From: Bathymodiolus brooksi
Lineage: Eukaryota > Mollusca > Bivalvia > Mytilida > Modiolidae
NCBI GenBank assembly: GCA_963680875.1
Contig: OY804579.1
Location: forward strand, 33,837,804 to 33,901,803
Reading direction: 5' to 3'
Length of the DNA stretch: 64,000 bases
Below, one piece after another: positions 1-62,334 of the stretch. Positions within the stretch are counted from its first letter, which is position 1. Every line of letters starts with the position of its first letter. A program made the position numbers and the translations under genes. The notes beneath the pieces were generated by a model. The model ran no database searches, had not been told where the DNA came from, and saw nothing but the letters and a program-made list of their open reading frames with translations.

Positions 1-3000
1 CAAAACTTATGACCAGTAAAACAGGGTAAAGATTCAACATGTCTAAATAGATGTGACTTACAGGAGCAGGAGAATGTTGACCTACGTGTTGTATACAAAA
101 CTTATGACCAGTAAGACAGGGTATAGATTCAACATGTTTAAATAGATGTGACTTACAGGAGCAGGAGAATGTTGACCTATGTGTTGTATACAAAACTTAT
201 GACCAGTAAGACAGGGTAAAGATTCAACATGTCTACATAGATATGACTTACAGGAGCAGGAGAATGTTGACCTACATGTTGTATACAAAACTTATGACCA
301 GTAAGACAGGGTATAGATTCAACATGTCTACATAAATATGACTTACAGGAGCAGGAGATTGTTGACCTACGTGTTGTATACAAAACTTATGACCAGTAAA
401 ACAAGGTATAGATTCAACATGTCTAAATAGATATGATTTACAGGAGGAGAATGTTGACCTACGTGTTGTATGCAAAACTTATGAACAGTAAGACAGGGTA
501 TAGATTCAACATGTCTAAATAGATATGACTTACAGGAGCAGGAGAATGTTGACCTATGTGTTGTATACAAATCTTAAGACCAGTAAGACAGGGTATAGAT
601 TCAACATGTCTAAATAGATATGACTTACAGGAGCAGGAGAATGTTGACCTACGTGTTGTATACAAAACTTATGACCAGTAAAACAGGGTAAAGATTCAAC
701 ATGTCTAAATAGATATGACTTACAGGAGCAAGAGAATGTTGACCTACGTGTTGTATACAAAACTTATGAACAGTAAAACAGGGTATAGATTCAACATGTC
801 TACATAGATATGACTTACAGGAGCAGGAGAATGTTGACCTACGTGTTGTATACAAAACTTATGACCAGTAAGACAGGGTAAAGATTCAACATGTCTAAAT
901 AGATATGACTTACAGGAGCAGGAGAATGTTGACCTACGTGTGTTGTATACAAAACATATGACCAGTAAAACAGAGTAAAGATTCAACATGTCTACATAGA
1001 CTTACAGGAGCAGGAGAATGTTGACCTACGTGTTGTATACAAAACTTATCACCAGTAAAACAGGGTATAGATTCAACATGTCTACATAGATATGACTTAC
1101 AGGAGCAGGAGAATGTTGACCTACATGTTGTATACAAAACATATGACCAGTAAGACAGGGCATAGATTCAACATGTCTAAATAGATATGACTTACAGGAG
1201 CAGGAGAATGTTGACCTACATGTTGTATACAAAACTTATGACCAGTAAGACAGGGTATAGATTCAACATGTCTACATAGATATGACTTACAGGAGCAGGA
1301 AAATGTTGACCCATGTGTTGTATACAAAACTTATGACCAGTAAAACAGGGTAAAGATTCAACATGTCTAAATAGATGTGACTTACAGGAGCAGGAGAATG
1401 TTGACCTACGTGTTGTATACAAAACTTATGACCAGTAAGACAGGGTATAGATTCAACATGTCTAAATAGATGTGACTTACAGGAGCAGGAGAATGTTGAC
1501 CTATGTGTTGTATACAAAACTTATGACCAGTAAGACAGGGTAAAGATTCAACATGTCTACATAGATATGACTTACAGGAGCAGGAGAATGTTGACCTACA
1601 TGTTGTATACAAAACTTATGACCAGTAAGACAGGGTATAGATTCAACATGTCTACATAAATATGACTTACAGGAGCAGGAGATTGTTGACCTACGTGTTG
1701 TATACAAAACTTATGACCAGTAAAACAAGGTATAGATTCAACATGTCTAAATAGATATGATTTACAGGAGGAGAATGTTGACCTACGTGTTGTATGCAAA
1801 ACTTATGAACAGTAAGACAGGGTATAGATTCAACATGTCTAAATAGATATGACTTACAGGAGCAGGAGAATGTTGACCTATGTGTTGTATACAAATCTTA
1901 AGACCAGTAAGACAGGGTATAGATTCAACATGTCTAAATAGATATGACTTACAGGAGCAGGAGAATGTTGACCTACGTGTTGTATACAAAACTTATGACC
2001 AGTAAAACAGGGTAAAGATTCAACATGTCTACATAGATATGACTTACAGGAGCAAGAGAATGTTGACCTACATGTTGTATAAAAAACTTATGACCAGTAA
2101 AACAGGGTATAGATTCAACATGTCTACATAGATATGACTTACAGGAGCAGGAGAATGTTGACCTACATGTTGTATAGAAAACTTATCACCAGTAAAACAG
2201 GGTATAGATTCAACATGTCTACATAGATATGACTTACAGGAGCAGGAGAATGTTGACCTACATGTTGTATACAAAACATATGACCAGTAAGACAGGGCAT
2301 AGATTCAACATGTCTAAATAGATATGACTTACAGGAGCAGGAGAATGTTGACCTATGTGTTGTGTACAAAACTTATGACCAGTAAAACAGGGTATAGATT
2401 CAACATGTCTACATAGATATGACTTACAGGAGCAGGAGAATATTGACCTACGTGTTGTGTACACAACTTATGACCAGTAAGACAGGGTATAGATTCAACA
2501 TGTCTAAATAGATATGACTTACAGGAGCAGGAGAATGTTGACCTACATGTTGTATACAAAACTTATGACCAGTAAGACAGGGTATAGATTCAACATGTCT
2601 ACATAGATATGACTAACAGGAGCAGGAGAATGTTGACCTATGTGTTGTATACAAAACTTATGACCAGTAAGACAGGGTATAGATTCAACATGTCTAAATA
2701 GATATGACTTACAGGAGCAGGAGAATGTTGACCTACATGTTGTATACAAAACATATGACCAGTAAGACAGGGTATAGATTCAACATGTCTACATAGATAT
2801 GACTTACAGGAGCAGGAGAATGTTGACCTACATGTTGTATACAAAACATATGACCAGTAAGACAGGGCATAGATTCAACATGTCTACATAGATATGACTT
2901 ACAGGAGCAGGAGAATGTTGACCTACGTGTTGTATACAAAACTTATGACCAGTAAGACAGGGTATAGATTCAACATGTCTACATAGATATGACTTACAGG

Positions 3001-6000
3001 AGCAGGAGAATGTTGACCTACGTGTTGTGTACAAAACTTATGACCAGTAAAACAGGGTAAAGATTCAACATGTCTAAATAGATATGACTTACAGGAGCAG
3101 GAGAATGTTGACCTACGTGTTGTGTACAAAACATATGACTAGTAAGACAGGGTATAGATTCAACATGTCTAAATAGATATGACTTACAGGAGCAGGAGAA
3201 TGTTGACCTACGTGTTGTATACAAAACTTATGACCAGTAAGACAGGGTATAGATTCAACATGTCTAAATAGATATGACTTACAGGAGCAGGAGAATGTTG
3301 ACCTACATGTTGTATACAAAACATATGAACAGTAAAACAGGGTATAGATTCAACATGTCTACATAGATATTACTTAGAGGAGCAGGAGAATGTTGACCTA
3401 CGTGTTGTATACAAAACTTATGACCAGTAAGACAGGGTATAGATTCAACATGTCTACATAGATATGACTTACAGGAACAGGAGACTGTTGACCTACATGT
3501 TGTATACAAAACATATGACCAGTAAGACAGGGTATAGATTCAACATGTCTACATAAATATGACTTACAGGAGCAGGAGAATGTTGACCTATATGTTGTAT
3601 ACAAAACATATGACCAGTAAAACAAGGTATAGATTCAACATGTCTAAATAGATATGATTTACAGGAGCAGGAGAATGTTGACCTATGTGTTGTATGCAAA
3701 ACTTATGAACAGTAAGACAGGGTATAGATTCAACATGTCTAAATAGATATGACTTACAGGAGCAGGAGAATGTTGACCTATGTGTTGTGTACAAAACTTA
3801 TGACCAGTAAAACAGGGTATAGATTCAACATGTCTACATAGATATGACTTACAGGAGCAGGAGAATGTTGACCTACGTGTTGTATACAAAACTTATGACC
3901 AGTAAGACAGGGTATAGATTCAACATGTCTACATAGATATGACTTACAGGAGCAGGAGAATGTTGACCTACATGTTGTGTACAAAACTTATGACCAGTAA
4001 AACAGGGTAAAGATTCAACATGTCTAAATAGATATGACTTACAGGAGCAGGAGAATGTTGACCTACGTGTTGTGTACAAAACATATGACTAGTAAGACAG
4101 GGTATAGATTCAACATGTCTAAATAGATATGACTTACAGGAGCAGGAGAATGTTGACCTACGTGTTGTATACAAAACTTATGACCAGTAAGACAGGGTAT
4201 AGATTCAACATGTCTAAATAGATATGACTTACAGGAGCAGGAGAATGTTGACCTACATGTTGTATACAAAACTTATGAACAGTAAAACAGGGTATAGATT
4301 CAACATGTCTACATATATATTACTTAGAGGAGCAGGAGAATGTTGACCTACATGTTGTATACAAAACTTATGACCAGTAAGACAGGGTATAGATTCAACA
4401 TGTCTACATAGATATGACTTACAGGAGCAGGAGAATGTTGACCTACATGTTGTATACAAAACATATGACCAGTAAGACAGGGTATAGATTCAACATGTCT
4501 ACATAAATATGACTTACAGGAGCAGGAGAATGTTGACCTACGTGTTGTATACAAAACATATGACCAGTAAAACAAGGTATAGATTCAACATGTCTAAATA
4601 GATATGATTTACAGGAGCAGGAGAATGTTGACCTATGTGTTGTATGCAAAACTTATGAACAGTAAGACAGGGTATAGATTCAACATGTCTAAATAGATAT
4701 GACTTACAGGAGCAGGAGAATGTTGACCTATGTGTTGTGTACAAAACTTATGACCAGTAAAACAGGGTATAGATTCAACATGTCTACATAGATATGACTT
4801 ACAGGAGCAGGAGAATGTTGACCTACGTGTTGTATACAAAACTTATGACCAGTAAGACAGGGAATAGATTCAACATGTCTACATAGATATGACTTACAGG
4901 AGCAGGAGAATGTTGACCTACGTGTTGTATACAAAACTTATGACCAGTAAGACAGGGTATAGATTCAACATGTCTACATAGATATGACTTACAGGAGCAG
5001 GAGAATGTTGACCTACGTGTTGTGAACAAAACATATGACTAGTAAGACAGGGTATAGATTCAATATGTCTAAATAGATATGATTTACAGGAGCAGGAGAA
5101 TGTTGACCTACGTGTTGTATACAAAACTTATGACCAGTAAGACAGGGTATAGATTCAACATGTCTAAATAGATATGACTTACAGGAGCAGGAGAATGTTG
5201 ACCTACATGTTGTATACAAAACTTATGAACAGTAAAACAGGGTATAAATTCAACATGTCTAAATAGATATGACTTACAGGAGCAGGAGAATGTTGACCTA
5301 CGTGTTGTATACAAAACTTTTGACCAGTAAGACAGGGTAAAGATTCAACATGTCTACATAGATATGACTTACAGGAGCAGGAGAATGTTGACCTACGTGT
5401 TGTATACAAAACTTATGACCAGTAAGACAGGGAATAGATTCAACATATCTACATAAATATGACTTACAGGAGCAGGAGAATGTTGACCTACGTGTTGTAT
5501 ACAAAACATATGACCAGTAAAACAAGGTATAGATTCAACATGTCTAAATAGATATGATTTACAGGAGCAGGAGAATGTTGACCTATGTGTTGTATGCAAA
5601 ACTTATGAACAGTAAGACAGGGTATAGATTCAACATGTCTAAATAGATATGACTTACAGGAGCAGGAGAATGTTGACCTATGTGTTGTGTACAAAACTTA
5701 TGACCAGTAAAACAGGGTATAGATTCAACATGTCTACATAGATATGACTTACAGGAGCAGGAGAATGTTGACCTACGTGTTGTGTACACAACTTATGACC
5801 AGTAAGACAGGGTATAGATTCAACATGTCTACATAGATATGACTTACAGGAGCAGGAGAATGTTGACCTACATGTTGTATACAAAACTTATGACCAGTAA
5901 GACAGGGTATAGATTCAACATGTCTACATAAATATGACTTACAGGAGCAGGAGAATGTTGACCTACGTGTTGTATACAAAACTTATGACCAGTAAAACAA

Positions 6001-9000
6001 GGTATAGATTCAACATGTCTAAATAGATATGATTTACAGGAGCAGGAGAAGGTTGACCTACGTGTTGTATGCAAAACTTATGAACAGTAAGACAGGGTAT
6101 AGATTCAACATGTCTAAATAGATATGTCTTACAGGAGCAGGAGAATGTTGACCTATGTGTTGTGCACAAAACTTATGACCAGTAAAACAGGGTATAGATT
6201 CAACATGTCTACATAGATATGACTTACAGGAGCAGGAGAATGTTGACCTATGTGTTGTGTACAAAACTTATGACCAGTAAGACAGGGTATAGATTCAACA
6301 TGTCTAAATAGATATGACTTACAGGAGCATGAGAATGTTGACCTACATGTTGTATACAAAACTTATGAACAGTAAAACAGGGTATAGATTCAACATGTCT
6401 AAATAGATATGACTTACAGGAGGAGGAGAATGTTGACCTACATGTTGTATACAAAACTTATGACCAGTAAGACAGGGTATAGATTCAACATGCCTACATA
6501 GATATGACTTACAGGAGCAGGAGAATGTTGACCTATGTGTTGTATACAAAACTTATGACCAGTAAGACAGGGTAAAGATTCAACATGTCTAAATAGATAT
6601 GACTTACAGGAGCAGGAGAATGTTGACCTACATGTTGTATACAAAACATATGAACAGTAAAACAGGGTATAGATTCAACATGTCTACATAGATATTACTT
6701 AGAGGAGCAGGAGAATGTTGACCTACGTGTTGTATACAAAACTTATGACCAGTAAGACAGGGTATAGATTCAACATGTCTACATAGATATGACTTACAGG
6801 AACAGGAGACTGTTGACCTACATGTTGTATACAAAACATATGACCAGTAAGACAGGGTATAGATTCAACATGTCTACATAAATATGACTTACAGGAGCAG
6901 GAGAATGTTGACCTACATGTTGTATACAAAACATATGACCAGTAAAACAAGGTATAGATTCAACATGTCTAAATAGATATGATTTACAGGAGCAGGAGAA
7001 TGTTGACCTATGTGTTGTATGCAAAACTTATGAACAGTAAGACAGGGTATAGATTCAACATGTCTAAATAGATATGACTTACAGGAGCAGGAGAATGTTG
7101 ACCTATGTGTTGTGTACAAAACTTATGACCAGTAAAACAGGGTATAGATTCAACATGTCTACATAGATATGACTTACAGGAGCAGGAGAATGTTGACCTA
7201 CGTGTTGTATACAAAACTTATGACCAGTAAGACAGGGTATAGATTCAACATGTCTACATAGATATGACTTACAGGAGCAGGAGAATGTTGACCTACATGT
7301 TGTGTACAAAACTTATGACCAGTAAAACAGGGTAAAGATTCAACATGTCTAAATAGATATGACTTACAGGAGCAGGAGAATGTTGACCTACGTGTTGTGT
7401 ACAAAACATATGACTAGTAAGACAGGGTATAGATTCAACATGTCTAAATAGATATGACTTACAGGAGCAGGAGAATGTTGACCTACGTGTTGTATACAAA
7501 ACTTATGACCAGTAAGACAGGGTATAGATTCAACATGTCTAAATAGATATGACTTACAGGAGCAGGAGAATGTTGACCTACATGTTGTATACAAAACTTA
7601 TGAACAGTAAAACAGGGTATAGATTCAACATGTCTACATATATATTACTTAGAGGAGCAGGAGAATGTTGACCTACATGTTGTATACAAAACTTATGACC
7701 AGTAAGACAGGGTATAGATTCAACATGTCTACATAGATATGACTTACAGGAGCAGGAGAATGTTGACCTACATGTTGTATACAAAACATATGACCAGTAA
7801 GACAGGGTATAGATTCAACATGTCTACATAAATATGACTTACAGGAGCAGGAGAATGTTGACCTACGTGTTGTATACAAAACATATGACCAGTAAAACAA
7901 GGTATAGATTCAACATGTCTAAATAGATATGATTTACAGGAGCAGGAGAATGTTGACCTATGTGTTGTATGCAAAACTTATGAACAGTAAGACAGGGTAT
8001 AGATTCAACATGTCTAAATAGATATGACTTACAGGAGCAGGAGAATGTTGACCTATGTGTTGTGTACAAAACTTATGACCAGTAAAACAGGGTATAGATT
8101 CAACATGTCTACATAGATATGACTTACAGGAGCAGGAGAATGTTGACCTACGTGTTGTATACAAAACTTATGACCAGTAAGACAGGGAATAGATTCAACA
8201 TGTCTACATAGATATGACTTACAGGAGCAGGAGAATGTTGACCTACGTGTTGTATACAAAACTTATGACCAGTAAGACAGGGTATAGATTCAACATGTCT
8301 ACATAGATATGACTTACAGGAGCAGGAGAATGTTGACCTACGTGTTGTGAACAAAACATATGACTAGTAAGACAGGGTATAGATTCAATATGTCTAAATA
8401 GATATGATTTACAGGAGCAGGAGAATGTTGACCTACGTGTTGTATACAAAACTTATGACCAGTAAGACAGGGTATAGATTCAACATGTCTAAATAGATAT
8501 GACTTACAGGAGCAGGAGAATGTTGACCTACATGTTGTATACAAAACTTATGAACAGTAAAACAGGGTATAAATTCAACATGTCTAAATAGATATGACTT
8601 ACAGGAGCAGGAGAATGTTGACCTACGTGTTGTATACAAAACTTTTGACCAGTAAGACAGGGTAAAGATTCAACATGTCTACATAGATATGACTTACAGG
8701 AGCAGGAGAATGTTGACCTACGTGTTGTATACAAAACTTATGACCAGTAAGACAGGGAATAGATTCAACATATCTACATAAATATGACTTACAGGAGCAG
8801 GAGAATGTTGACCTACGTGTTGTATACAAAACATATGACCAGTAAAACAAGGTATAGATTCAACATGTCTAAATAGATATGATTTACAGGAGCAGGAGAA
8901 TGTTGACCTATGTGTTGTATGCAAAACTTATGAACAGTAAGACAGGGTATAGATTCAACATGTCTAAATAGATATGACTTACAGGAGCAGGAGAATGTTG

Positions 9001-12000
9001 ACCTATGTGTTGTGTACAAAACTTATGACCAGTAAAACAGGGTATAGATTCAACATGTCTACATAGATATGACTTACAGGAGCAGGAGAATGTTGACCTA
9101 CGTGTTGTGTACACAACTTATGACCAGTAAGACAGGGTATAGATTCAACATGTCTACATAGATATGACTTACAGGAGCAGGAGAATGTTGACCTACATGT
9201 TGTATACAAAACTTATGACCAGTAAGACAGGGTATAGATTCAACATGTCTACATAAATATGACTTACAGGAGCAGGAGAATGTTGACCTACGTGTTGTAT
9301 ACAAAACTTATGACCAGTAAAACAAGGTATAGATTCAACATGTCTAAATAGATATGATTTACAGGAGCAGGAGAAGGTTGACCTACGTGTTGTATGCAAA
9401 ACTTATGAACAGTAAGACAGGGTATAGATTCAACATGTCTAAATAGATATGTCTTACAGGAGCAGGAGAATGTTGACCTATGTGTTGTGCACAAAACTTA
9501 TGACCAGTAAAACAGGGTATAGATTCAACATGTCTACATAGATATGACTTACAGGAGCAGGAGAATGTTGACCTATGTGTTGTGTACAAAACTTATGACC
9601 AGTAAGACAGGGTATAGATTCAACATGTCTAAATAGATATGACTTACAGGAGCATGAGAATGTTGACCTACATGTTGTATACAAAACTTATGAACAGTAA
9701 AACAGGGTATAGATTCAACATGTCTAAATAGATATGACTTACAGGAGGAGGAGAATGTTGACCTACATGTTGTATACAAAACTTATGACCAGTAAGACAG
9801 GGTATAGATTCAACATGCCTACATAGATATGACTTACAGGAGCAGGAGAATGTTGACCTATGTGTTGTATACAAAACTTATGACCAGTAAGACAGGGTAA
9901 AGATTCAACATGTCTAAATAGATATGACTTACAGGAGCAGGAGAATGTTGACCTATGTGTTGTGTACAAAACATATGACCAGTAAGACAGGGTATAGATT
10001 CAACATGTCTAAATAGATATGACTTACAGGAGCAGGAGAATGTTGACCTATGTGTTGTATACAAAACTTATGACCAGTAAGACAGGGTATAGATTTAACA
10101 TGTCTAAATAGATATGACTTACAGGAGCAGGAGAATGTTGACCTACATGTTGTATACAAAACTTATGAACAGTAAAACAGGGTATAGATTTAACATGTCT
10201 AAATAGATATGACTTACAGGAGCAGGAGAATGTTGACCTACATGTTGTATACAAAACTTATGACCAGTAAGACAGGGTATAGATTCAACATGTCTACATA
10301 GATATGACTTACAGGAGCAGGAGAATGTTGACCTACATGTTGTATACAAAACTTATGACCAGTAAGACAAGGCATAGATTCAACATATCTACATAGATAT
10401 GACTTACAGGAGCAGGAGAATGTTGACCTACATGTTGTATACAAAACTTATGACCAGTAAAACAGGGTATAGATTCAACATGTCTAAATAGATATGACTT
10501 ACAGGAGCAGGAGAATGTTGACCTACATGTTGTATACAAAACTTATGACCAGTAAGACAGGGTATAGATTCAACATGTCTAAATAGATATGACTTACAGG
10601 AGCAGGAGAATGTTGACCTACGTGTTGTATACAAAACATATGACCAGTAAAACAAGGTATAGATTCAACATGTCTAAATAGATATGATTTACAGGAGCAG
10701 GAGAATGTTGACCTATGTGTTGTATACAAAACTTATGACCAGTAAGACACTGTATAGATTCAACATGTCTAAATAGATATGACTTACAGGAGCAGGAGAA
10801 TGTTGACCTACATGTTGTATACAAAACATATGACCAGTAAGACAGGGTATAGATTCAACATGTCTAAATAGATATGACTTACAGGAGCAGGAGAATGTTG
10901 ACCTACGTGTTGTATACAAAACTTATGACCAGTAAGACAGGGTATAGATTCAACATGTCTACATAGATATGACTTACAGGAGCAGGAGAATGTTGACCTA
11001 CATGTTGTATACAAAACTTATGACCAGTAAGACAGGGTATAGATTCAACATGTCTACATAGATATGACTTACAGGAGCAGGAGAATGTTGACCTACGTGT
11101 TGTATACAGAACATATGACCAGTAAAACAGGGTATAGATTCAACATGTCTACATAGATATGACTTACAGGAGCAGGAGAATGTTGACCTACGTGTTGTAT
11201 ACAAAACTTATGACCAGTAAGACAGGGTATAGATTCAACATGTCTAAATAGATATGACTTACAGGAGCAGGAGAATGTTGACCTACGTGTTGTATACAAA
11301 ACTTATGACCAGTAAAACAGGGTATAGATTCAACATGTCTACATAGATATGACTTACAGGAGCAGGAGAATGTTGACCTACGTGTTGTATACAAAACTTA
11401 TGACCAGTAAGACAGGGAATAGATTCAACATGTCTACATAGATATGACTTACAGGAGCAGGAAAATGTTGACCTATGTGTTGTATACAAAACTTATGACC
11501 AGTAAGACAGGGTATAGATTCAACATGTCTAAATAGATATGACTTACAGGAGCAGGAGAATGTTGACCTACGTGTTGTATACAAAACTTATGACCAGTAA
11601 GACAGGGTATAGATTCAACATGTCTACATAGATATGACTTACAGGAGCAGGAGAATGTTGACCTACGTGTTGTATACAAAACTTATGAACAGTAAAACAG
11701 GGTATAGATTCAACATGTCTAAATAGATATGACTTACAGGAGCAGGAGAATGTTGACCTACGTGTTGTATACAAAACTTTTGACCAGTAAGACAGGGTAA
11801 AGATTCAACATGTCTACATAGATATGACTTACAGGAGCAGGAGAATGTTGACCTACGTGTTGTATACAAAACATATGACCAGTAAGACAGGGTATAGATT
11901 CAACATATCTACATAGATATGACTTACAGGAGCAGGAGAATGTTGACCTACGTGTTGTATACAAAACTTATCACCAGTAAAACAGGGTAAAGATTCATCA

Positions 12001-13290
12001 TGTCTACATAGATATGACTTACAGGAGCAGGAGAATGTTGACCTACGTGTTGTATACAAAACTTATGACCAGTAAGACAGGGAATAGATTCAACATGTCT
12101 ACATAGATATGACTTACAGGAGCAGGAGAATGTTGACCTACGTGTTGTATACAAAACTTATGACCAGTAAGACAGGGTATAGATTCAACATGTCTAAATA
12201 GATATGACTTACAGGAGCAGGAGAATGTTGACCTACGTGTTGTATACAAAACTTATGACCAGTAAGACAGGGTATAGATTCAACATGTCTACATAGATAT
12301 GACTTACAGGAGCAGGAGAATGTTGACCTACGTGTTGTATACAAAACTTATGAACAGTAAAACAGGGTATAGATTCAACATGTCTAAATAGATATGACTT
12401 ACAGGAGCAGGAGAATGTTGACCTACATGTTGTATACAAAACTTTTGACCAGTAAGACAGGGTAAAGATTCAACATGTCTACATAGATATGACTTACAGG
12501 AGCAGGAGAATGTTGACCTACGTGTTGTATACAAAACTTATGACCAGTAAGACAGGGTATAGATTCAACATGTCTAAATAGATATGACTTACAGGAGCAG
12601 GAGAATGTTGACCTACGTATTGTATACAAAACATATGACCAGTAAGACAGGGCATAGATTCAACATGTCTATATAGATATGACTTACAGGAGCAGGAGAA
12701 TGTTGACCTACATGTTGCATACAAAACTTATGACCAGTAAGACAGGGTAAAGATTCAACATGTCTACATAGATATGACTTACAGGAGCAGGAGAATGTTG
12801 ACCTACATGTTGTATACAAAACTTATGACCAGTAAGACAGGGTAAAGATTCAACATGTCTACATAGATATGACTTACAGGAGCAGGAGAATGTTGACCTA
12901 CATGTTGCATACAAAACTTATGACCAGTAAGACAGGGTATAGATTCAACATGTCTACATAGATATGACTTACAGGAGCAGGAGAATGTTGACCTACGTGT
13001 TGTATACAAAACTTATGACCAGTAAAACAGGGTAAAGATTCAACATGTCTACATAGATATGACTTACAGGAGCAGGAGAATGTTGACCTACGTGTTGTAT
13101 ACAAAACTTATGACCAGTAAGACAGGGTATAGATTCAACATGTCTACATAGATATGACTTACAGGAGCAGGAGAATGTTGACCTACGTGTTGTATACAAA
13201 ACTTATGAACAGTAAAACAGGGTAAAGATTCAACATGTCTACATAGATATGACTTACAGGAGCAGGAGAATGTTGACCTACGTGTTGTAT
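1..13290 (-). repeat. 95-bp tandem array (about 140 copies) in EXOC7 intron 7, overlapping the end of exon 7
   Basis: A near-uniform 95-bp unit runs from the left edge to 13290. Read on the minus strand, each unit is ATACAACACGTAGGTCAACA continuing to TCTCCTGCTCCT (33 nt identical to the end of EXOC7 exon 7), then GTAAGT and 62 nt of intron. Most variation is single-base. Deviations include a unit of about 92 bp near 430-460 and a shortened one near 995. Higher-order structure is visible: 1324, 950 (10 units), 3325 (35 units) and 665 bp (7 units). Overlapping ORFs of 67-81 codons on the minus strand are by-products of the repeat. The array is longer than the window shows. Confidence 0.97.
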
Positions 13291-13327
13291 TGATGTCCCA
13301 CTGGCTGACTTTAAATGTTCTCTTAAC
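13258..13327 (-). CDS. EXOC7: EXOC7 coding exon 7; its 3' end is the seed of the 95-bp array
   Basis: 70 bp, acceptor TTATAG, donor GTAAGT. It encodes [20 protein letters not shown] then PAP, corresponding to vertebrate GLKEHFHKSSSSSG and YSPA. The last 33 nt ([11 protein letters not shown]) plus the donor recur in every unit of the array that fills the rest of the window to the left. In mammals the coding region just after this point is alternatively spliced. The next exon is outside the window. Confidence 0.9.
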
Positions 13328-16300
13328 CTATAATGAAACATGTCATTGTAAATCTTTCTGAATGACAACCACTCAGATAATTCCAAATTTGATGCAAATT
13401 GATTTTTATTTGAATACATGTAATTGATTTACCAGTATACATATACCTAAAACTCTATTTTATCTGATGGCTTTGTTGTCAATAAACTTTGGAATACAAG
13501 TTTTAGCTTGTACTACAAAATAATTCAAACAGAACATTGCATATACTAGATACAGCAGGTGATTTGTGAGTACAAGTAGGACATTCATGCTCCAAACATT
13601 TATGACTATAATGCCAAATTCACATTTCTGTGTTTAATTTTCATACAAAACATTGAAGAGCAGGACAAAAAGACCAAACTAAAGTTATCTGTGTCTGAGG
13701 GAGATAACTCTTACTCTACCAATAATTTCTAAATTTAAAATAATATCAGTCAATTTCTGAAATAACATCATGCCAACATCAAATAGCATATTATAAATCT
13801 ACACTTTACAATAAACAAATATAAGAAAATACATACACTTGTAGTGATTTTAACATGATGGCTCCTCTCATATTTAAATAATCCTTTGTAAAATCAACAG
13901 TGTTTCCTTTCTTCTCTAACCAGTTGGCTATCTGACCTAAATCCTCTACAATTTTCTCTGGGAAATGTTCTAATGGAATATCAGGGTCAGAAGATGGAAT
14001 ATCTGAAAGTAAATAATTATATTAAATATTTTATTATCAATAAATCTGTTACTTCAAAGGGATAAATATTAATGTTCATTTCTGTCACTTTTATTTAGTT
14101 GCTAGGGAACCCTTACAACCACTAAATAAGATTGATTGATTATTGGTTGCTTCACGTCCATCAGCAAACATTTCATGCATATTCATGATGAAAACAAGTT
14201 CTACAATACATAATATAAAATGATACAGAAATGAGGAAGGATTGGAGAACCCCTCTATTAATGTCAATATATGAGGACAAGATCAATTGTCAATTAACTG
14301 AATTAATGTCCAAGAAAGAAAAATTGTATTTTGAGAACAGTCTGATCTATGATGATTTCTCACGTGACCCCACCTGGCAGATGTATGGAGGTTGAATATG
14401 CACCACATATGTTGATGATGTAAAGATGGCAGAGTTACAGACACGAGGAATTCCCATTTAAAATTTAGAAGTTGCAAACACAAATATTTTTATAAAATAT
14501 TCTTAGTAAAATAATTCTTCCAAAAATGATATTTAAATAAAACTGTTGTAACAATATGAGAATCTTCATATGGTTATAAGCAAGAATGCAGCATTCCATG
14601 AAACTCACAGCTAAAATGTAAGAGGAGATGTGCATACAAACTTTTTTATGACAGACAGGGCAAATACAATATGTCTCCCCTAGAGGGGGAGACATATAAA
14701 TATCAATACATTACAACATTTCTGTAAAGTTTTGCTTACAGAGATTTATATTCCTTTATAATCATCATATCTACAATAAATTGATTGCAGTTGTAATTCA
14801 AGATTTAAAGACAAAACAAATAATAAACTAGAAATATCTCTTGATATAAAATTACCGTCATCTCCAATAAGATCCAGTATCATGATGGCTGGACAGGGAC
14901 GACCATGTCTGTTTAATAACGTACGGAACTCACAACATAACACATCTTTACCCTCCTCAAATACTCTAGTCTGAAAGATAAAAATACCAAAATTATTATA
15001 ATCTAAAAAATCATACCTCAATTTCTCTAGTCTGAAAAAATACCTCAAATTCTCTAGTCTGATAAATTATACTGCTAATCCTCTAGTCTGAAAAATACCT
15101 CAAATTCTCTAGTCTGAAAAATACCTCAAATTCTCTAGTTTGAAAAAATACCTCAAAATTCTCTAGTCTGAAAAATACTTCAAATTCTCTAGTCTGAAAA
15201 ATACCTCAAATTCTCTAGTCTGATAAATTATACTACAAATCCTCTAGTCTGAAAAAATACCTCAAATTCTCTAGTCTGATAAAATACCTCAAATTCTCTA
15301 GTCTGAAAAATACCTAAAATTCTCTAGTCTGCAAATACCTCAAATTCTCTAGTCTGATAAAATACCTCAAATTCTCTAGTCTGAAAAAATACCTCAAATT
15401 CTCTAGTCTGAAAAATACCTCAAATTCTCTAGTCTGAAAAAATGCCTCAAATTCTCTAGACTGAAAAATACCTCAAATTCTCTAGTCTGAAAAATACCTC
15501 AAATTCTCTAGTCTGAAAAATACCTCAAATTCTCTAGTCTGAAAAACACCTCAAATTCTGTAGTCTGAAAAATACCTCAAATTCTCTAGTCTGAAAAATA
15601 CCTCAAATTCTCATGTCTGAAAAATACCTCAAATTCTCTAGTCTGAAAAAATGCCTCAAATTCTCTAGTCTGAAAAATACCTCAAATTCTCTAGTCTGAA
15701 AAATACCTCAAATTCTCTAGTCTGAAAAACACCTCAAATTCTCTAGTCTGAAAAACACCTCAAATTCTCTAGTCTGAAAAATACCTCAAATTCTCTAGGC
15801 TGAAAAATACCTCAAATTCTCATGTCTGAAAAATATCTTAAATTTCTCTAGTCTGAAAAATACCTCAAATTCTCTAGTCTGAAAAATACCTCAAATTCTC
15901 TAGTCTGAAACATACCTCAAATTCTCTAGTCTGAAAAATACCTCAGATTCTCTAGTCTGAAAAATATTTTAAATTTCTCTAGTCTGAAAAATACCTCAAA
16001 TTCTCTAGTCTGAAAAATATCTCAAATTCTCTAGTCTGAAAAATATCTTAAATTTCTCTAGTCTGAAAAATACCTCAATCACTCAAATCTAAAATAATGC
16101 CATGATAGTACAATCCATAAAAATTGTTCAATAAACTTATAATAGTTTACTGACTGATGACAGACAACATATGACTGACATCAAGTCATGGAAACAACTC
16201 ACATGGACCTTTAAAGGTTCAGGTGAGCTAAAAACACTAGCAAGTTAAGATACGATGCGATCTTTACATTTCATTTTTAGTAAAAATATATACATGTACT

Positions 16301-19300
16301 GCTTTTAATTTTTAATTTCAAACATGTAGAGATGGGCCGTAGTCGTGATCACATGGATTTACAACTACCTATACAATCAGTGCCTATCACCACTAACTTC
16401 AAACCCTGTTCATGGCGAGGTGTACTCAATACAACATTATGTTATAAAGTTTGTCAGTGACTTATGGCAGGTCTGTGGTTTTCATCGTGTACTCCCATTT
16501 CCTCCACCAACAAAACTGACTGCCACGATATAACTAAAATATTGTTGAAAGTGGCATTAAACACCATAAACCAACCAACCAACCAATCAAACATGTTGCT
16601 GCACATAGATTCTATTATACTTACAACATCCAATAACTCTAAACTAGAACTATTATGACTTTCAAAATATATAATGGCTTGTTTCAATCTGTCCATCTGT
16701 AAAAGGTATCTGTCTAAACCACAAGATGACGGGCTGAAATAAAATATACAAAATATGCATCTGTAACAGCCATATTTTCAGGTAGAATATTATAAATAAA
16801 AGATTACATACAAATATCTACTTAAACTGGGACCGTGGATATAAATAGCTGTGGGCGGAGCAAACTTTCAGATTGTTCATTATTTTGACCACGGTTATCT
16901 CAAGGAGGAAAAATCAATAATACATAGTTTCAGTTACTGTTGGAGCAAAATATTTGACAGGCATGGTCACAAGTGTTCCTCCCTACGAAAATTTCAGTCT
17001 TATTAAAAATGTTCTTCATCAATCTAAAATCTACAAATCACTTTGAAAATTCAAATTTCTAAGGTATTTCACGTGACCTAAAGGTCACATTGGTCATGTG
17101 ACATACAGTTTCAAAATTATGCTGTTCATATCAACGGGGATTTTTGATGATAAGCTCCGCCCACAAATTGTGTCCGTAGTGCCTACTGCAAATGCCCCTT
17201 TAACATGTTTTGTTATAATAAATTGCTTCATGAAGTCCTTGTATTTTTACACTCATAAAAAAGTACAAAGTTTTACGGTCGGTACATTCAGTTCTAATAT
17301 TTTTATCATATATATTCGAACTCTGCAAAAAATGTACCCTATGTTGTTTGCATGGACTAAATTAAAGGTTTACTACAAGGAACTTATATAACTACTTACT
17401 TTACCAAAAGTAATAAAAGTTGTTTCATTTTACTTACAATGTATCACATGATAATTATATGTGTTCAGTCAAACTCAACATTCAGTTCAAATTCAAATGT
17501 CTCCATCTGTAATACATTTTTTAACCATACCACAACAAAGACTTATCCTTAATTAACAGTACAATGTATTGTTTATACTCAAAACTTTTTGCAACCATGG
17601 TAACAATAGATATCAAATTATTTGAAACTTATTAATCTTTGATTGGTTGAGATTGGCTTATTGCTTATTTAAAGACATCTTTAATACTTTTTCAGTTATA
17701 TTCTGCCTACCAATCTCATTGATGGAGGAAAACCTGGACAGTTATAATGAACTGACAGTTGTCTCCCTTGGCCTTGGCTAGGTGTGTGTGTGGCTTAGGA
17801 TTAGGCTTATGGTGTTTAACACAACTTTCAACAATATTTCAGTTATATCGTGGCGGGCAGTTTTATTGGTGGAGGAAACCGGAGTATCCAGTGAAAACCA
17901 CTGACCTGTCTCAAGTCACTGACAAACTTTATCACATAATGTTGTATCAAGTACACCTCGCCCGAGCAGTATTTGAACTCACAACATTAGTGGTGATAGG
18001 CACTGATTGCACAGGAAGTTGGATACCAACTACCATACGATCAAGACCATGACAGCCCCTAGGTGTGTGCAAAACCCATAACACTTCAGGAGAAAACTCA
18101 TGTTAGTGGTGTTGGGCTTGGATCAAAAGTAAACAGCCTAAAGCATGCGGACACCCAAGCCCACTCAACAAAGTCTCTCTATGTCTTTTCTTTCATGGTA
18201 ATAATCAACTTACCCATCTTTAATCATGGTCTCTACATCTTTTGCTACATGGTAATAATCAACTTACCCATCTTTAATCACAGTCTCTACATCTTTTGCT
18301 ACATGGTAATAATCAACTTACCCATCTTTAATCACGGTCTCTACATCTTTTGCTACATGGTAATAATCAACTTACCCATCTTTAATCATGGTCTCTACAT
18401 CTTTTGCTACATGGTAATAATCAACTTACCCATCTTTAATCACGGTCTCTACATCTTTTGCTACATGGTAATAATCGACTTACCCATCTTTAATCACGGT
18501 CTCTACATCTTTTGCTACATGGTAATAATCGACTTACCCATCTTTAATCACGGTCTCTACATCTTTTGCTACATGGTAATAATCAACTTACCCATCTTTA
18601 ATCACGGTCTCTACATCTTTTGCTACATGGTAATAATCGACTTACCCATCTTTAATCACAGTCTCTACATCTTTTGCTACATGGTAATAATCAACTTACC
18701 CATCTTTAATCACGGTCTCTACATCTTTTGCTACATGGTAATAATCAACTTACCCATCTTTAATCACGGTCTCTACATCTTTTGCTACATGGTAATAATC
18801 AACTTACCCATCTTTAATCACGGTCTCTACATCTTTTGCTACATGGTAATAATCAACTTACCCATCTTTAATCACGGTCTCTACATCTTTTGCTACATGG
18901 TAATAATCAACTTACCCATCTTTAATCACAGTCTCTACATCTTTTGCTACATGGTAATAATCAACTTACCCATCTTTAATCACGGTCTCTACATCTTTTG
19001 CTACATGGTAATAATCAACTTACCCATCTTTAATCAGGGTCTCTACATCTTTTGCTACATGGTAATAACCAACTTACCCATCTTTAATCAGGGTCTCTAC
19101 ATCTTTTGCTACATGGTAATAATCAACTTACCCATCTTTAATCACGGTCTCTACATCTTTTGCTACATGGTAATAATCAACTTACCCATCTTTAATCACG
19201 GTCTCTACATCTTTTGCTACATGGTAATAATCAACTTACCCATCTTTAATCACGGTCTCTACATCTTTTGCTACATGGTAATAATCAACTTACCCATCTT

Positions 19301-22300
19301 TAATCATGGTCTCTACATCTTTTGCTACATGGTAATAATCAACTTACCCATCTTTAATCACGGTCTCTACATCTTTTGCTACATGGTAATAATCGACTTA
19401 CCCATCTTTAATCACGGTCTCTACATCTTTTGCTACATGGTAATAATCGACTTACCCATCTTTAATCACGGTCTCTACATCTTTTGCTACATGGTAATAA
19501 TCAACTTACCCATCTTTAATCACGGTCTCTACATCTTTTGCTACATGGTAATAATCGACTTACCCATCTTTAATCACGGTCTCTACATCTTTTGCTACAT
19601 GGTAATAATCAACTTACCCATCTTTAATCACGGTCTCTACATCTTTTGCTACATGGTAATAATCAACTTACCCATCTTTAATCACGGTCTCTACATCTTT
19701 TGCTACATGGTAATAATCAACTTACCCATCTTTAATCACGGTCTCTACATCTTTTGCTACATGGTAATAATCAACTTACCCATCTTTAATCACGGTCTCT
19801 ACATCTTTTGCTACATGGTAATAATCAACTTACCCATCTTTAATCACAGTCTCTACATCTTTTGCTACATGGTAATAATCAACTTACCCATCTTTAATCA
19901 CGGTCTCTACATCTTTTGCTACATGGTAATAATCAACTTACCCATCTTTAATCAGGGTCTCTACATCTTTTGCTACATGGTAATAATCAACTTACCCATC
20001 TTTAATCAGGGTCTCTACATCTTTTGCTACATGGTAATAATCAACTTACCCATCTTTAATCATGGTCTCTACATCTTTTGCTACATGGTAATAATCAACT
20101 TACCCATCTTTAATCACGGTCTCTACATCTTTTGCTACATGGTAATAATCAACTTACCCATCTTTAATCACGGTCTCTACATCTTTTGCTACATGGTAAT
20201 AACCTAGTACAGTATCTAGTGTCACTGTTGTTTTCTCAATGTCTTAATTTATTAAGGAAATTATTGTTAACTACAGGTGCCTGTATGAAGTCATGAACTT
20301 GAAACAAAACCTGGGTTATCTTTAAAAAAAAACCTCACAAAACTGATGTCAACTTTTTTTTATATGAGCTATAACATTTAAACATAAAATATCCATCAAT
20401 AAAGGCATATAAAATCTATTTCATTGGTGGACCCTACAAAATTGGCATCAAGCAAATGTCTAATTCATATTTATGGGTGGTACATATTAAAAATATCTGT
20501 CTTCCTTGAGTGGAGATACATTGTACGTGTAAATGGAATGACCATAAGAGAAAATGACATTTAACTAGAAAAATACAAACAAAGGGTAATTGTTATAAGC
20601 TGAGGAATTTCCATAAATTATAACTGACATATAAATTTTAATTTCCAAACCAATATTTTTATTTTTCAATTTTGTCTCTTAAAAGTGTTTAAATAGAATA
20701 ATAGAATAAAATGTCAATGAGTAATTTATGATAATTATGCAGTTTGAAAAACAGTTTTGGCATTTTTTATATGACTGCTTATCTTCCTTTACACATATGT
20801 ACAAGGTTCTTACACATGTGTCTTCCTTTACACATATGTACATGGTTCTTACACATGTGTCTTCCTTTACACATATGTACAAGGTTCTTACACATGTATC
20901 TTCCTTTACACATATGTACAAGGTTCTTACACATGTGTCTTCCTTTACACATATGTACAAGGTTCTTACACATGTGTCTTCCTTTACACATATGTACAAG
21001 GTTCTTACACATGTATCATCCTTTACACATATGTACAAGGTTCTTACACATGTGTTTTCCTTTACACATATGTACAAGGTTCTTACACATGTATCATCCT
21101 TTACACATATGTACAAGGTTCTTACACATGTGTCTTCTTTTACACATGTACAAGGTTCTTACACATGTATCATCCTTTACACATATGTACAAGGTTCTTA
21201 TAGTTACATGTGTCTTCCTTTACACATATGTACAAGGTTCTTACACATGCATCATCCTTTGCACATATGTACAAAGTTCTTACACATGTGTCTTCCTACA
21301 TAGCATGAAACCATCCGTGGAATGAATGTGAGCACTTGATTTATTTTGCTACTCATCATTGGAAGACAGAACTTTCATTAAACAACTTATTGCAACACAA
21401 CAAAGAGTTGTGGTTATGGTGTTTAATGCCACTTTCAACACTATTTCAGTTATATCGTGGTGGTCGGTTTATTGGTGGAGAGAACCGGAGTACCCTGAGA
21501 AAATCACTGACCTGTAGCAAGTCATTGACAAGTTTTAAATATACATAATGTTGTATCGAGTACACCTCATCATGAAGGGGATTCGAACTTGTGATAGGCA
21601 CTGATGCATAGATAGTTGTATATCCAACTACCATACGTATATACGTTCATGACCATGACAGTCCCTGCAACATAATAAACGATAAAGGATACTTTCTTGT
21701 CGTCTTCTCAACATTTCTGTTTCATTGTAGACTGGTTCTATAGTACTCTCTAATTTCTGTAGACGATTCTCAAAACTATTCAGAATTCCTAACATACTGT
21801 GTGTGTTCGTTCTACTTTTGTTCATTGCATCCTTTAGAATGGCAAGGTTGTGTTTTTCCTGTAAAAAAAAACAAAATATTTACAGTAGGATGCCAGCTGC
21901 ACAAACATTCTCAAACCTTATTTGAAGTAAACCAATTATGCAAGCCTTCATTAACAGTGAACAATTGATAAGCTGATGTGCAAATGTACAAAACTAGTAT
22001 TTTAAGCAGATGTAATAGTACCAAGATCTATTTGGGTTTTTTTTTTCTGAATTATTGACCAACACAATTTACCGATAATATTCAAGAAATGTATTGTGAC
22101 AAACAGTCTAATTTTCTCCATGCATTTGAAATATCAACAAAACAAAAAATCATAAATGATGTTCATGTTTGTTCAGCATTAATCTTTCCAGGTCTAATAC
22201 CAAATATTTAAAGCAGCACATTTTTCTTGTAGTTAAATATTGCATTATATAAACAGTACTAGTAGTGGAAATTTAATTGAAATTTGACCCACATAATAAG

Positions 22301-26746: not shown

Positions 26747-26810
26747 ATGGGTCGACGATCAATCAACACCACCAAGAGTGGGAAATATATGAATCCTACT
26801 GATCAAGCCA
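26747..26810 (+). CDS. WBP11: WBP11 coding exon 1
   Basis: 64 bp, residues 1-21 plus one base ([21 protein letters not shown]), donor GTATGT. Near-identical to the vertebrate N-terminus, which fixes the start codon. Confidence 0.97.
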
Positions 26811-29800
26811 GTATGTAGCAAAACATAAATAATCAAAGTAGTCTGTTATATTGATATGGTTTGTCCTTTTTGAGATTTCGGATTTATTAGTAACAAAATT
26901 TGCAGGCCAATTTGGGTCTTGTTTAGTTATTATATTATGTTGAGAGTTGATAGTGTTGACATTGTTGTGTCATCTTCCTTGGATCGAAGTTGATGAATGT
27001 CGAAGGAGTAGGGGCAGAATTAGCATAGGTCCTGCAGAGCCAACATTGGTGACAGACCGAATGTTTGACATGATCTTGTGGCACAAGGCTAAAGGTGTCA
27101 TGCGTGGATCAAGGAAGACGTTCCTCTTTTGGCTCTAGAAAAAAGTGAAATTTCCTAAATATTAGAATCATTTATGACAAATTTATAATAAGAATCATCA
27201 TTATTGTGGTAAAAGTACATAACCAACTCAAAATTCCCCATTTAAACCCAGTAAACAAGATAAACACAACATTAAAAAATCAATGAATCAGAATGATAAC
27301 ATTGCCGGTAAAACAGTCACATGACAAAGTATATCGGAAGTAAACAAACATTTTTACTTTCAATAGTTTCATGCTGTCTAGACTTTATACTAACCAGGCT
27401 TTTCGATAAACCTGAACTCCTGAGTTGCCCAGGAGACGAAGATTTAACTAGTCTACTCTGCTAATATGAACTATTCCCACCTTTTCACAATTCCATATTC
27501 GAGCACAGATAAAGCTTTAAAGAGAAAGAAAAAAAAGATCAGGTATGTGGAAAATTTGTTTTTGTATTTTGGCAATAACAAGCTCTGTATTTAACATACT
27601 ACACTCACCAAGTAGCACTTTGTCTACTGAAAACATACTGCTCAGATGTCTGACAGAACATTTTCCTTTTGTTGCCATTTCCAAGGCCCTACACCATCCA
27701 AATAAAAACTGTAACCTGTATAACAGCCTAAGAGTTACCAAATACCTCAAATATAGTCCTAATAGAAAGGTACAACTATATCTGTGCCTATTACTTTTTG
27801 CAAACTCTTCAGACACTGAAGCAAATCCTGGCCCTAGAACTCCTAAATGGCCATGTGGTACATGCCAAAAAGCAGTAACAACAAAAAATAAAGCTATATG
27901 TTGTGATAGCTGTAACACCTGGTATCACATAAGACTGTCAAAATGTACACCCTCATATCTATGAATGTATGAATGCTAGTAACATCAGCTGGGAGTGCAT
28001 ACAATGTGGAATGCCCAACATTTCTACGTCAATTTTTAATAATTATTCGTTTGTGTCACCCAATCCATTTGACAAACTGAATAACTTGGGGAAAACCATT
28101 AACAATAACAATGATGTACATGTACCAAGTAAAAGCTTATTACCACCAACAAGCATAGAAAGAATTAATTCAACAACTCCTACAAACCAACAAAAGAGAA
28201 ACAAAATCACACGATGGCCATGTGGCACTTGCCAGAGGGCAGTAACATGGAAGCAAAAAGCACTTTGCTGTGACAGTTGTGATACTTGGTACCACATACA
28301 CTGTCAGGGTATGACATCTCACAACTGAATGTATGAATGCCAGTAACATAAACTGGGAATGTACCAACTGTGGAATGCCAAACTTTTCCACCAGCTTATT
28401 TAATAATCAAACCGACATATCATTTAATACCACAAATAACTGGAGCTTGATGAATGATACATCTCTTAATAATAGCTTAGGAGCTCCACAGGCATCTTCA
28501 TCGCCTATGACTAAGGTTAAACTAAATTCTAAACCACCAAAGAAAACTCCAAATAAAGATCGTAAACCAATTAGAATCTTGAACATTAATTTTCAATCAA
28601 TAAAAAATAAGAAAGAAGACCTTAACCAAATTATTGACTCTGCTAAACCTGATATAATCTTAGGAACAGAGACATGGTTATATAAAGATACGTCATCGTA
28701 CAAGTTCTTTCCATCAGAATTATTCAATGTCTACAGGTCAGACAGGAAACCAAATAAAAACAACCAAAGTTATGGAGGAGTGCTTATTGCCATCAACAAA
28801 GAATTTATTAGTTCTGAAGTAAGCGAACTCAAAACTGATTGCGAAATAGTTTGGTCTCAAATAAACATGTCTGGAAGTAAGAACTTACTAATAGGTGCAT
28901 ACTATAGACCACCATCTGATAAGGGAACATCTCTACAACAGCTTGAATTATCCCTCAGTAGAATAAATCATGCATCCAATACCAATATTATTTTAGGAGG
29001 AGACTTTAATCTGGGTCACATCGACTGGTCTATACCACAAGTTATACCAGGTAAACCAGAAACAGAACTTGACATCAAACTCTTAGATATCATCGATGAA
29101 TACAATCTCCATCAATTAGTAAATGTTCCAACTAGAAAAGAGCGAACTCTTGATCTCATTTTAGTAATCAATCCATCTATCATCAATAAAGTTCATACAT
29201 TACCACCTCTTGGGCTTAGTGACCATGATGTTGTTTAAATAGAAGCAGACATATGGCTGCGTAAAGTACGTCAACAACCCAGAAAAATCCTTAGTTATGA
29301 CAAAGCAAACTGGGATAACATCAAATCTGATTTAGAAGACACACTTAAAAAGATAATAAACATAAACAATGATGCAAAAATTACTGTAAATGAAATGTGG
29401 AACTTATTTAAGAACAATCTTGCAAAATCAATTAATAAAAACATCCCACATAAAATGCTAACATACAAACATCGACTACCCTGGATCCATAATAAACTAA
29501 GAAAGATGATTAATAAAAAGAACAAAAAATATAAAGAGAAATATAAACAGCTGAAACATCAGGTCCAGAAAGAACAAAGACATGCTTACAACACCTATAT
29601 CGAAAAATTAATCCTAAACCTTCCAACAAATAATCCAGATCAAAGTTTTAATAATCAATCGAAACCAAAAAAACTCTTCTCCTTCATAAAGTCACTCAGA
29701 ACTGACAACAGTGGAGTTGCTCCCTTGAAAAAAGAAGGACAACTAATTGCCGACACTAAACAAAAGGCAAACATCTTAAACGAACAATTTAAATCTGTAT

Positions 29801-44800: not shown

Positions 44801-47800
44801 GATTGAAATCTTACCCTTGGGTGTCAGAGATTTCCCTATCTTGTGCTTCCCCCAGTGTTAGATTCTATATTTCAGTGTTCTTTGTGAAGAATTATGGTAC
44901 AAGATCATTGCATGATAACTGAATGTGATCTTAATGAGTGATCCTACAGTATGATCAAATGGAGTTGTTAATTTCCATATTATCGAGTTCAGTCATTTTT
45001 CTGTGGTTTTGATAATATTTGTTTATACGTAGTTTTAAAATTTAAATGTTTTGTTTATAGAACAAGTAAAGAATGCTGAACGTGTGCAGTTAGATCAGAT
45101 TCCATTACCAGATATACCACAACAACTTACAAGTAGGTTATCTCTAACTAGTGGAGTTGAAAATATAGAATACTAAAGTTATTATTCAATTGACACTGAC
45201 ACACAAAATTAAGAGGAAAAAACAGCCATTAAAAAATTGGGACAAAAAGACAGTTGTTTTATATTGTAAACATTAAACATTTCTTTTGAGTGACTGATTG
45301 TTGCTTAATGCCAAGTGAGTAATTTTTCAGCCATATTATGACGAGAACAACTTGCATTTTGATTAGATAGTGATGATGTCCGCAGGTAGATATGTCACTC
45401 AACTCCAACATTTTATCCTGATTCCGAGCCAACCAGTCTTTCTTCTTACTCCTTAATGATGTGTGCGTAGCAGAGAAGCAGCAAATACCAATTTTATAGT
45501 CTTTGGTTTGACTCGACCAGGTTTCTAATCCACGATCACTCAAGGAGAGCATGATAACTATTATATCACAGATACTGTTAACATTTCTTGTGTAGGACAC
45601 CATTGAAATGTCCAGTTTATCAAAGTCAATGTAAGTTGAGACACATGATAACCACAAGTGGTTTTAAGTGACAAGATTTATTTCATAATAGCAGCTTGCT
45701 TTATTGACAAAGTTAACCTCTATCTCAAACAATGGTGGATTTGTTATTAGGTATCACTTGTGATAATTTATCTTGCTTGATTGCCACTGTGCATTTCAAA
45801 GACTCTAATTCCATTTACAGTTCAATACATTTTGATCTTGTTACATTCCTCATTAAAACTTTATTATTAACCTAAGTGAAGCAAACAAAACAGAAACATG
45901 GAATTATTAATGAAATTATAATATTTTCTTATACCGTATAACCGGTAATTTCTGCAGTTTTGGTCTAAAAAGATGACATTTAATTTTTGCGGATTTTTAT
46001 TTCTGCGGATTGAAAATCTTGGCACCGAAAAAAAGTTGTTTGTATTACAGGAAGCAACAACTGAAGCGATGTTGCGATAAACAACTGGTGCACATTACAG
46101 TGATCATTAGAAGTAAAAACATATTTAGTTCTTTAGAAAGTTTTCAAACGTTACAACTTCTGAATACGGATTTGGTTAACTTCAAATTTGTCTTAAGAAA
46201 CTATTTTTTCACTGTTTTCGCGATCTATTTTGTTGACAGGAAATACGAAGTCAACAGCTGGATCGATATTGGTATAAACTTTGATATATTTCGAATGTAT
46301 ATTTTTAATGTCGAATTTTCATACTTTATCATATAACAATGTTTTTTAAAGAATTATGATTAGAAGCAATTGTATTCAATTCTTTTAGTATAATGTAGAC
46401 ATAAAAACTAGGGTTAACTGGAATTCTACTACCAGTACATTTCTATTTGTTTGGTCTTTAGATGAATCCTGCGATCACGCAGTTTGATATTATTCAATCG
46501 AAGCTAGCTACTACAACAATTAAAAAAAATATCTAATGTTAATTTATGAAATAAAAATTTTAAATATTGCTTTAATAAACTTTATTATGATTGTAAATAT
46601 TTAATCAGGTGATTGTTTCAATTATATTGTCGGTGTCAGCTTGGTACAATCATATTTCTTGATCTGGAGTAATTGTAATTAACAGGTAAAAATCATCATG
46701 CCACAGCTAAATAACCTTTAATTGTTGTGTAAACATTAATATAGTACCAGGTTTTGTTTATCTGGATATAGTAATTACGACTAATTAAATATTTGACACT
46801 TACGGCGGAATCGGAGTTCGAGTTTGAAAATGTATTTTGTACGGGACATTAAACATTTATTTTACATAATATTCTGCGATTTCAATTTCTGCGGTCCGGA
46901 GTTGACCGCAGAAATTACCGGTTATACTGTATTCTTTATCAACTTTTAAATGGTCATGATCGTATGGTAAGTGGATTTACAACTACCTATGCAATCAGTG
47001 GCAGGTTGGTGGCTTTCTCCCTGGGTACTCCGGTTTCCTCTACCAATAAAAACTGACTGCCACAATATAACTGAAGCATTGTTGAAAGTGGCATTAAACA
47101 CCATAACCTTAACCCTCAAATGTCTAACACGAGAAATCAACAGAGGTTTTATACTTAAAATATGATGTTAACCTTGCTTATTTTACAGTACCCTCTATGA
47201 TTCCATTACCTAATGAAATACCCCTACCATCATCACAAGATAATTTACCACATGGAATACTGAAGAAAACATCTGGCTTTAGGTAAGTTGAATCACATTT
47301 ATTTATGCATGTAATATACAAAAAAATAGAAAACATCTGTCTTTAGGTAAGTTGAAGCACATTTATTTATACATGTAATATACAAAAAAATAGAAAACAT
47401 CTGTCTTTAGGTAAGTTGAATCACATTTATTTATACATGTAATATACAAAAAAATAGAAAACATCTGTCTTTAGGTAAGTTGAAGCACATTTATTTATAC
47501 ATGTAATATACAAAAAAATATCATCAAATACACAGGGATTATTATTTTCAGTTATTTAAAGAGGCATTAGCTACGATTTTGACCAAAAAAATTATATGTT
47601 TTGGAAATTGGTAAATAGCTTTAAAATGATGAAATAAAGGTAAATATTTCACATTAAACAGCTTATCGTACCACTTTTCGCCTTCTGAGAACGAAAATTA
47701 CCATCGATTATTATTCCCTTGCAAGCAAATAATTTGACCTCGCTTTCTCCGTATGCAACTGACCTTACTAGTGACAGGTAAAAACGAATAATTTGTATTT

Positions 47801-62330: not shown

Positions 62331-62334
62331 AGCT

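Follow-up and report, generated by a model that had tools for sequence, protein, structure and literature searches.

How does a gene come to carry the end of a coding exon copied dozens or hundreds of times, splice site included, and by what means might it tolerate such copies? The question is raised by a 64,000-nucleotide stretch of the Bathymodiolus brooksi genome (contig OY804579.1, positions 33,837,804 to 33,901,803; hereafter, the window), in which the genes EXOC7 and WBP11 contain minisatellites whose repeat units run from coding exon into intron. We examined, in a single assembly, the window together with 240 kb of flanking DNA (110 kb of it to the right), a stretch of 304 kb in all; coordinates are given relative to the window start, such that negative values lie to its left and values above 64000 to its right. 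The arrays in EXOC7 and WBP11 are, very probably, minisatellites of the type known from amphioxus as "mirages", which likely arose from duplications of splice sites and are predicted to be tolerated by virtue of one intact site at the array edge.

Tandem Repeats Finder (TRF) recovered all four arrays reported in a first-pass annotation of this DNA, with units of 95, 26, 54 and 64 bp, at the positions where that annotation had placed them. The annotation held that each array crosses an exon-intron junction and leaves one intact exon at its edge, which proved true of three: the 54-, 95- and 64-bp arrays cover the 3' end of a coding exon along with its GT donor (the 5' splice site), and in each case the authentic exon lies at the array's 5' edge. 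The largest, the 95-bp array on the minus strand of EXOC7, occupies positions 1..13290 of the window and continues beyond it (-10749..13290 in total), amounting to 253 units over 24 kb, each made up of the final 33-35 bp of EXOC7 exon 7, the GT donor and about 60 bp of intron. The intact copy of exon 7 lies at 13258..13327 (minus strand), as located by tblastn with the closely related protein P0121 (92% identity over 25 amino acids, extending two amino acids beyond the exon end). The unit of the 54-bp array (18176..20202, minus strand) consists of 43-47 bp from the end of EXOC7 exon 3 followed by GTAAGT and a few intron bases, and the array presents 37 donors in register next to the intact exon 3 (20158..20246, minus strand). 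In WBP11, the four copies of the 64-bp array (47264..47520, plus strand) each comprise the final 19 bp of an exon and a GTAAGT donor, with 45 bp of intron in all; the intact exon was placed at 47185..47282 (plus strand) by tblastn with protein P0001 (94% identity), and its donor GT is at 47283.

The fourth array does not conform to this arrangement. Its 26-bp unit, repeated about 40 times at 15013..16078 on the minus strand of EXOC7, reads TTTTTCAG, then the boundary, then ACTAGAGAATTTGAG and GTA; that is, 11 bp of intron with an AG acceptor precede 15 bp resembling the start of EXOC7 exon 5. The intact exon 5, placed by protein alignment at 14860..14972 (minus strand), is separated from the array by a gap of 41 bp, and according to TRF the two do not overlap. 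This array is boundary-derived, not boundary-overlapping.

Both genes are readily identified. EXOC7, on the minus strand, was recognized by its Pfam domains (Exo70_C, 8.1e-22; Exo70_N, 4.9e-10), as was WBP11 on the plus strand (Wbp11, 1.5e-10), and protein searches, which place the host close to mussels, matched EXOC7 to Mytilus californianus (72% identity over 99%) and WBP11 to Mytilus edulis (84% identity over 100%). Exons were placed by aligning P0121 to EXOC7, in combination with Pfam; this protein is about 85-100% identical wherever the alignment stays within an exon, and P0001 matches WBP11 at 96% identity over 98%. As the first-pass annotation had indicated, the genes are arranged head to head: the first coding exon of EXOC7 (26158..26208, minus strand, from protein alignment) starts at 26208 and that of WBP11 (26747..26812, plus strand) at 26747, 539 bp apart. 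The first intron of EXOC7 also contains, on the minus strand at 24492-25972, reading frames that by eye resemble reverse transcriptase and are likely the remnant of a non-long-terminal-repeat retroelement.

Arrays of this kind are not confined to the window. The flanks contain three further donor arrays of EXOC7, namely a second 54-bp array (-16327..-15297, 19 copies), a 90-bp array (-86736..-86380) and a 40-bp array (-89841..-89723). To the right of the window, a saposin-like gene (Pfam SapB_2, 9.6e-13) has two 59-bp acceptor arrays preceding paralogous saposin-domain exons, one with 331 units over 19.6 kb (151674-171272) and the other running from 173235 to 174000, the end of the fetched stretch. 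We also sampled 20 loci with myosin matches (Myosin_head, 1.5e-15), which cover 23 of the 80 matches listed. At one of them, L043 (positions 1962-2186 of that locus), a myosin exon ending in DADFSLGHYAGM is joined to a 32-bp donor array with seven donors in register that runs off the fetched stretch; at another, L033, there is a 46-bp acceptor duplication of 2.1 copies. This brings the donor arrays with an intact edge exon to seven (EXOC7 54, 95, second 54, 90 and 40 bp; WBP11 64 bp; myosin L043 32 bp), alongside boundary-derived arrays on the acceptor side in EXOC7 (26 bp), the saposin-like gene (59 bp, two arrays) and myosin L033 (46 bp). Within the approximately 354 kb examined, each unit was confined to arrays of its own gene, which argues that in this sample the units do not belong to a dispersed element.

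Other arrays lie off the exon edges. Two in the window are intronic and do not span a boundary: a 39-bp array (20782..21297, TRF), 397 bp from the nearest exon edge, and a 48-bp array (50490..51126, TRF), 60 bp from a WBP11 exon. The earlier count of six arrays, two of them away from junctions, is accurate only for units of 15-200 bp in at least 2.9 copies (the 95-, 26-, 54-, 39-, 64- and 48-bp arrays); when the threshold is lowered to at least 1.9 copies, 15 or more arrays of 15-200 bp touch the window, and satellite-like arrays of about 155-322 bp are present besides. With the flanks included, arrays of this satellite-like sort have units of about 155-332 bp; they occur at 39296-42622, at 60705-63777 and in the flanks, and similar-looking units are found on both sides of the genes. 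Reading the flanks of further candidates led us to reject several. A 65-bp array of EXOC7 (-62565..-16841) begins some 30 bp past a donor and is intronic, and no boundary spanning was seen in the flanks of the 52-bp (-70596), 20-bp (-73056) and 29-bp (-86069) mirage candidates or of the 33-bp (74291), 52-bp (87801) and 48-bp (148645) arrays. Splice-like words were also present in several arrays that, once their flanks were read, proved not to span exon edges. The 65-bp array is itself of considerable size, with about 704 purely intronic units over 46 kb.

To what extent do these arrays coincide with exon edges beyond what is expected by chance? We collapsed each array with a 15-200 bp unit to a single unit and placed the seeds randomly, using a gene model with 65 exon edges over 150 kb that was derived from the closely related protein. 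Among arrays of at least 2.9 copies in EXOC7 and WBP11, 6 of 18 fell on an exon edge where random placement predicts 0.73 (P=6e-5, post hoc), and 12 of 18 lay within 100 bp of one, overlaps included, where 3.33 were expected. At a threshold of at least 1.9 copies, the overlap was 6/30 (1.30 expected; P=0.0014). EXOC7 behaved similarly beyond the window at both thresholds (3/12 versus 0.42 expected, P=0.007, for at least 2.9 copies; 3/15 versus 0.57, P=0.016, for at least 1.9), as did the window part without its 95-bp array at the higher threshold (2/5 versus 0.20; P=0.014). A rougher version of the test, in which the 26-bp array was scored as overlapping, gave 7/32 versus 1.44 (P=3e-4), and 3/17 versus 0.80 outside the window (P=0.039). 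The excess at exon edges thus holds at the EXOC7/WBP11 locus, including the part of EXOC7 that lies outside the window.

Two explanations for this excess deserve consideration. In a genome rich in minisatellites, arrays might land anywhere, and those at exon edges would survive when one splice site is left intact, the window being simply a lucky one; this is a real possibility, if short of a probable one. Array density is indeed high (the 110-kb right flank alone has 32 arrays with 15-200 bp units and at least 1.9 copies), and several results speak for chance or, like the gap beside the 26-bp array, against the reading preferred below. The excess comes mainly from a single gene and includes the data in which it was discovered; once the 95-bp array is set aside, the window part falls at the lower threshold to 2/14 versus 0.57 expected (P=0.11); and the myosin loci, a weak sample, yielded 2 boundary arrays versus 0.84 expected (P=0.20), with one of the two myosin exons (the second exon of L043) having been found via its array and the 48 edges counted there being an undercount. 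A comparison of 7-mers across the whole genome of 2.0 Gb in 136 contigs, which related tandem triples (three copies with 20-50 bases between neighbours) to all occurrences, points in the same direction: the donor word GGTAAGT was in triples at 15.9 per 100 (35,370 of 221,847), as against 7.1 for its reverse TGAATGG (19,694 of 278,642), 17.0 for the control GGATAGT (28,157 of 165,438) and 10.4 for the reverse of that control, TGATAGG (30,051 of 287,786), with all counts made per copy and dominated by giant arrays. An apparent donor excess of GGTAAGT over TGAATGG thus disappears when GGATAGT is considered, and the comparison does not reveal a donor-specific excess genome-wide. What chance accounts for poorly is the locus itself, where the overlaps, the crowding of arrays near exons and the replication in the out-of-window part of EXOC7 all exceed expectation. 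Alternatively, transcribed splice junctions, and 5' splice sites most of all, may be preferred starting points for duplication, making exon ends hotspots for minisatellites, with pausing or R-loops at U1-bound donors as a putative example of a cause. We consider such a mutational bias credible but tentative. All six exon-overlapping arrays of EXOC7 and WBP11 sit at donors, five of the seven donor units end, by eye, just 5-12 bp or so into the intron, and of the 36 arrays scored with a donor matrix in the 304-kb stretch, a set that includes the window arrays but not the 95-bp array, 7 carry donor-like sites (nominal P<0.05) where about 1.8 were expected. The 7-mer comparison speaks against this bias, as does the occurrence of acceptor arrays. 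Hence, the suggestion of the first-pass annotation that arrays meet exon edges more often than chance stands for EXOC7 and WBP11, and such arrays recur in other genes, but a genome-wide seeding bias toward splice junctions is unproven. That mytilid genomes in general harbor an active, splice-site-biased duplication process that makes minisatellites out of exon ends, chiefly U1-bound 5' splice sites, is doubtful on present evidence. If it exists, such a process would be shared in kind with lancelets, would operate on a far larger scale, and would provide mytilids with a constant mutational source of decoy splice sites, of exon repeats in frame and of introns yet to form.

The first-pass annotation had also raised the possibility that copies are selectively retained as spare splice sites, in favor of which it can be said that GT or AG is intact in nearly all sampled copies of seven arrays (37/37, 19/19, 106/108, 222/222, 38/39, 4/4 and 3/3). 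The diversity samples comprised 108 of the 253 units of the 95-bp array, for which a 100-base unit was used, and 222 of the roughly 332 units of the 59-bp array. Exact-word recounts found CCTGTAAGT in 227 of 253 units of the 95-bp array, ATTACAG in 177 of about 332 units of the 59-bp array, CAGACTAG in 34 of about 41 and GGGTAAGT in 37 occurrences. However, across seven arrays diversity was never significantly lower in the exon part of the copies than in their intron part (the lowest permutation P values were 0.135 for the 26-bp and 0.266 for the 54-bp array), and in the saposin array the exon part was the more diverse of the two (0.066 versus 0.020). Copies retained as spare sites would be expected to have better conserved exon bases, and these results argue against such retention. 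Moreover, use of a later donor would lead to a stop codon within the first extra unit in six of the seven donor arrays (54, 95, 64, 90 and 40 bp, and the 32-bp myosin array), and we regard such selection as very improbable. The exception is the EXOC7 54-bp array at -16327..-15297, in which the exon frame is open across all 19 copies and encodes an 18-amino-acid repeat, such that an altered choice of splice site could insert 18-amino-acid repeats into the protein. An artefact of assembly or sequencing is less probable still. Very long arrays, such as those of 24 kb and 46 kb, are difficult to assemble exactly, and exact copy numbers are accordingly uncertain; against an artefact, there are scattered substitutions among copies, the units at different loci are unrelated, and the sampled contigs measure 133-162 Mb.

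The preferred reading, that mirage-type arrays were born of splice-site duplications and are tolerated through one intact edge site, is also consistent with the proteins. At the seven EXOC7/WBP11 junctions, P0121 and P0001 contain every exon a single time, although a further point to be set against this reading is that both are proteins of close relatives and speak for a relative rather than for this animal. In the same alignments, no new intron was seen in EXOC7 or WBP11, as P0121 and P0001 join the flanking exons without an added segment at the seven junctions. An array would likely begin as a short tandem duplication across a splice site, probably with microhomology of a few bases at its birth: where the far ends of arrays are readable, the start of the unit overlaps the following intron by a few bases at some arrays, as judged by eye, which suggests small microhomology-based duplications in those cases. 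Growth likely proceeded by unequal exchange or slippage, to which the similarity among copies points. Splicing is then predicted to keep to the single intact site at the array edge, with the extra copies spliced out; that this animal uses the outer site exclusively, and that the copies are neutral, is what we infer. For the excess at exon edges, the leading idea is a putative local bias of duplication at transcribed splice junctions.

The presence of mirages in a mollusc, several of them within a single conserved gene and with units numbering in the hundreds, would make these structures a broader feature of animal genomes. The loci described here can also be brought to bear on two open questions: the way in which tandem duplications might give rise to new introns, and the choice that the spliceosome makes of a single donor when dozens or hundreds of almost identical ones are present.

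The first-pass annotation knew of no named system with these properties, which turns out to be mistaken: minisatellites spanning exon-intron boundaries have been described in amphioxus as mirages (PMC3087553, PMC3902484). In these papers, mirages are tandem minisatellites of exon-intron boundaries in amphioxus Adh3, the globins BflGb6 and BflGb9, TnC and PGBD5; their units of 10-160 bp occur on both donor and acceptor sides, are reported to leave splicing undisturbed and in many repeats keep AG or GT, and they show length instability and have been proposed as a source of new introns and a model for intron gain (PMC3087553). In lancelets they came to be described one gene at a time, and it was proposed that they are a general cephalochordate feature (PMC3087553); our literature searches, which covered open-licence papers only, found no report of mirages in molluscs. 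Related phenomena are known elsewhere. Within human segmental duplications, internal tandem repeats that sit at exon-intron boundaries alter gene structure (PMC2812944), and they resemble the mussel arrays in being minisatellites at such boundaries; the human repeats reportedly give rise to new introns or to alternative splicing among recent paralogs, whereas no new intron was seen in the mussel genes. The gain of introns from tandemly duplicated AG|GT proto-splice sites (Rogers, via PMC3087553; the potato RdRp case in PMC4974935) likewise involves the copying of a splice site in tandem, but differs from the present case, in which no new intron is found and P0121 and P0001 read each exon once. 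The closest match remains the amphioxus mirages. As in amphioxus, the unit spans an exon-intron boundary, in three of the four window arrays and in seven donor arrays overall; both 5' and 3' boundaries have been duplicated (the latter in the saposin-like 59-bp arrays, myosin L033 and the EXOC7 26-bp array); and the unit lengths of 26-95 bp fall within the approximately 10-160 bp described there. Unlike in amphioxus, the host is a mollusc, the arrays reach 253 units on the donor side, 331 on the acceptor side and a length of 24 kb, and a single gene, EXOC7, has six boundary arrays, one of them stopping short of its exon. The mussel arrays join the known class of mirages, and are notable for their host, the size of the arrays and their number in one gene.

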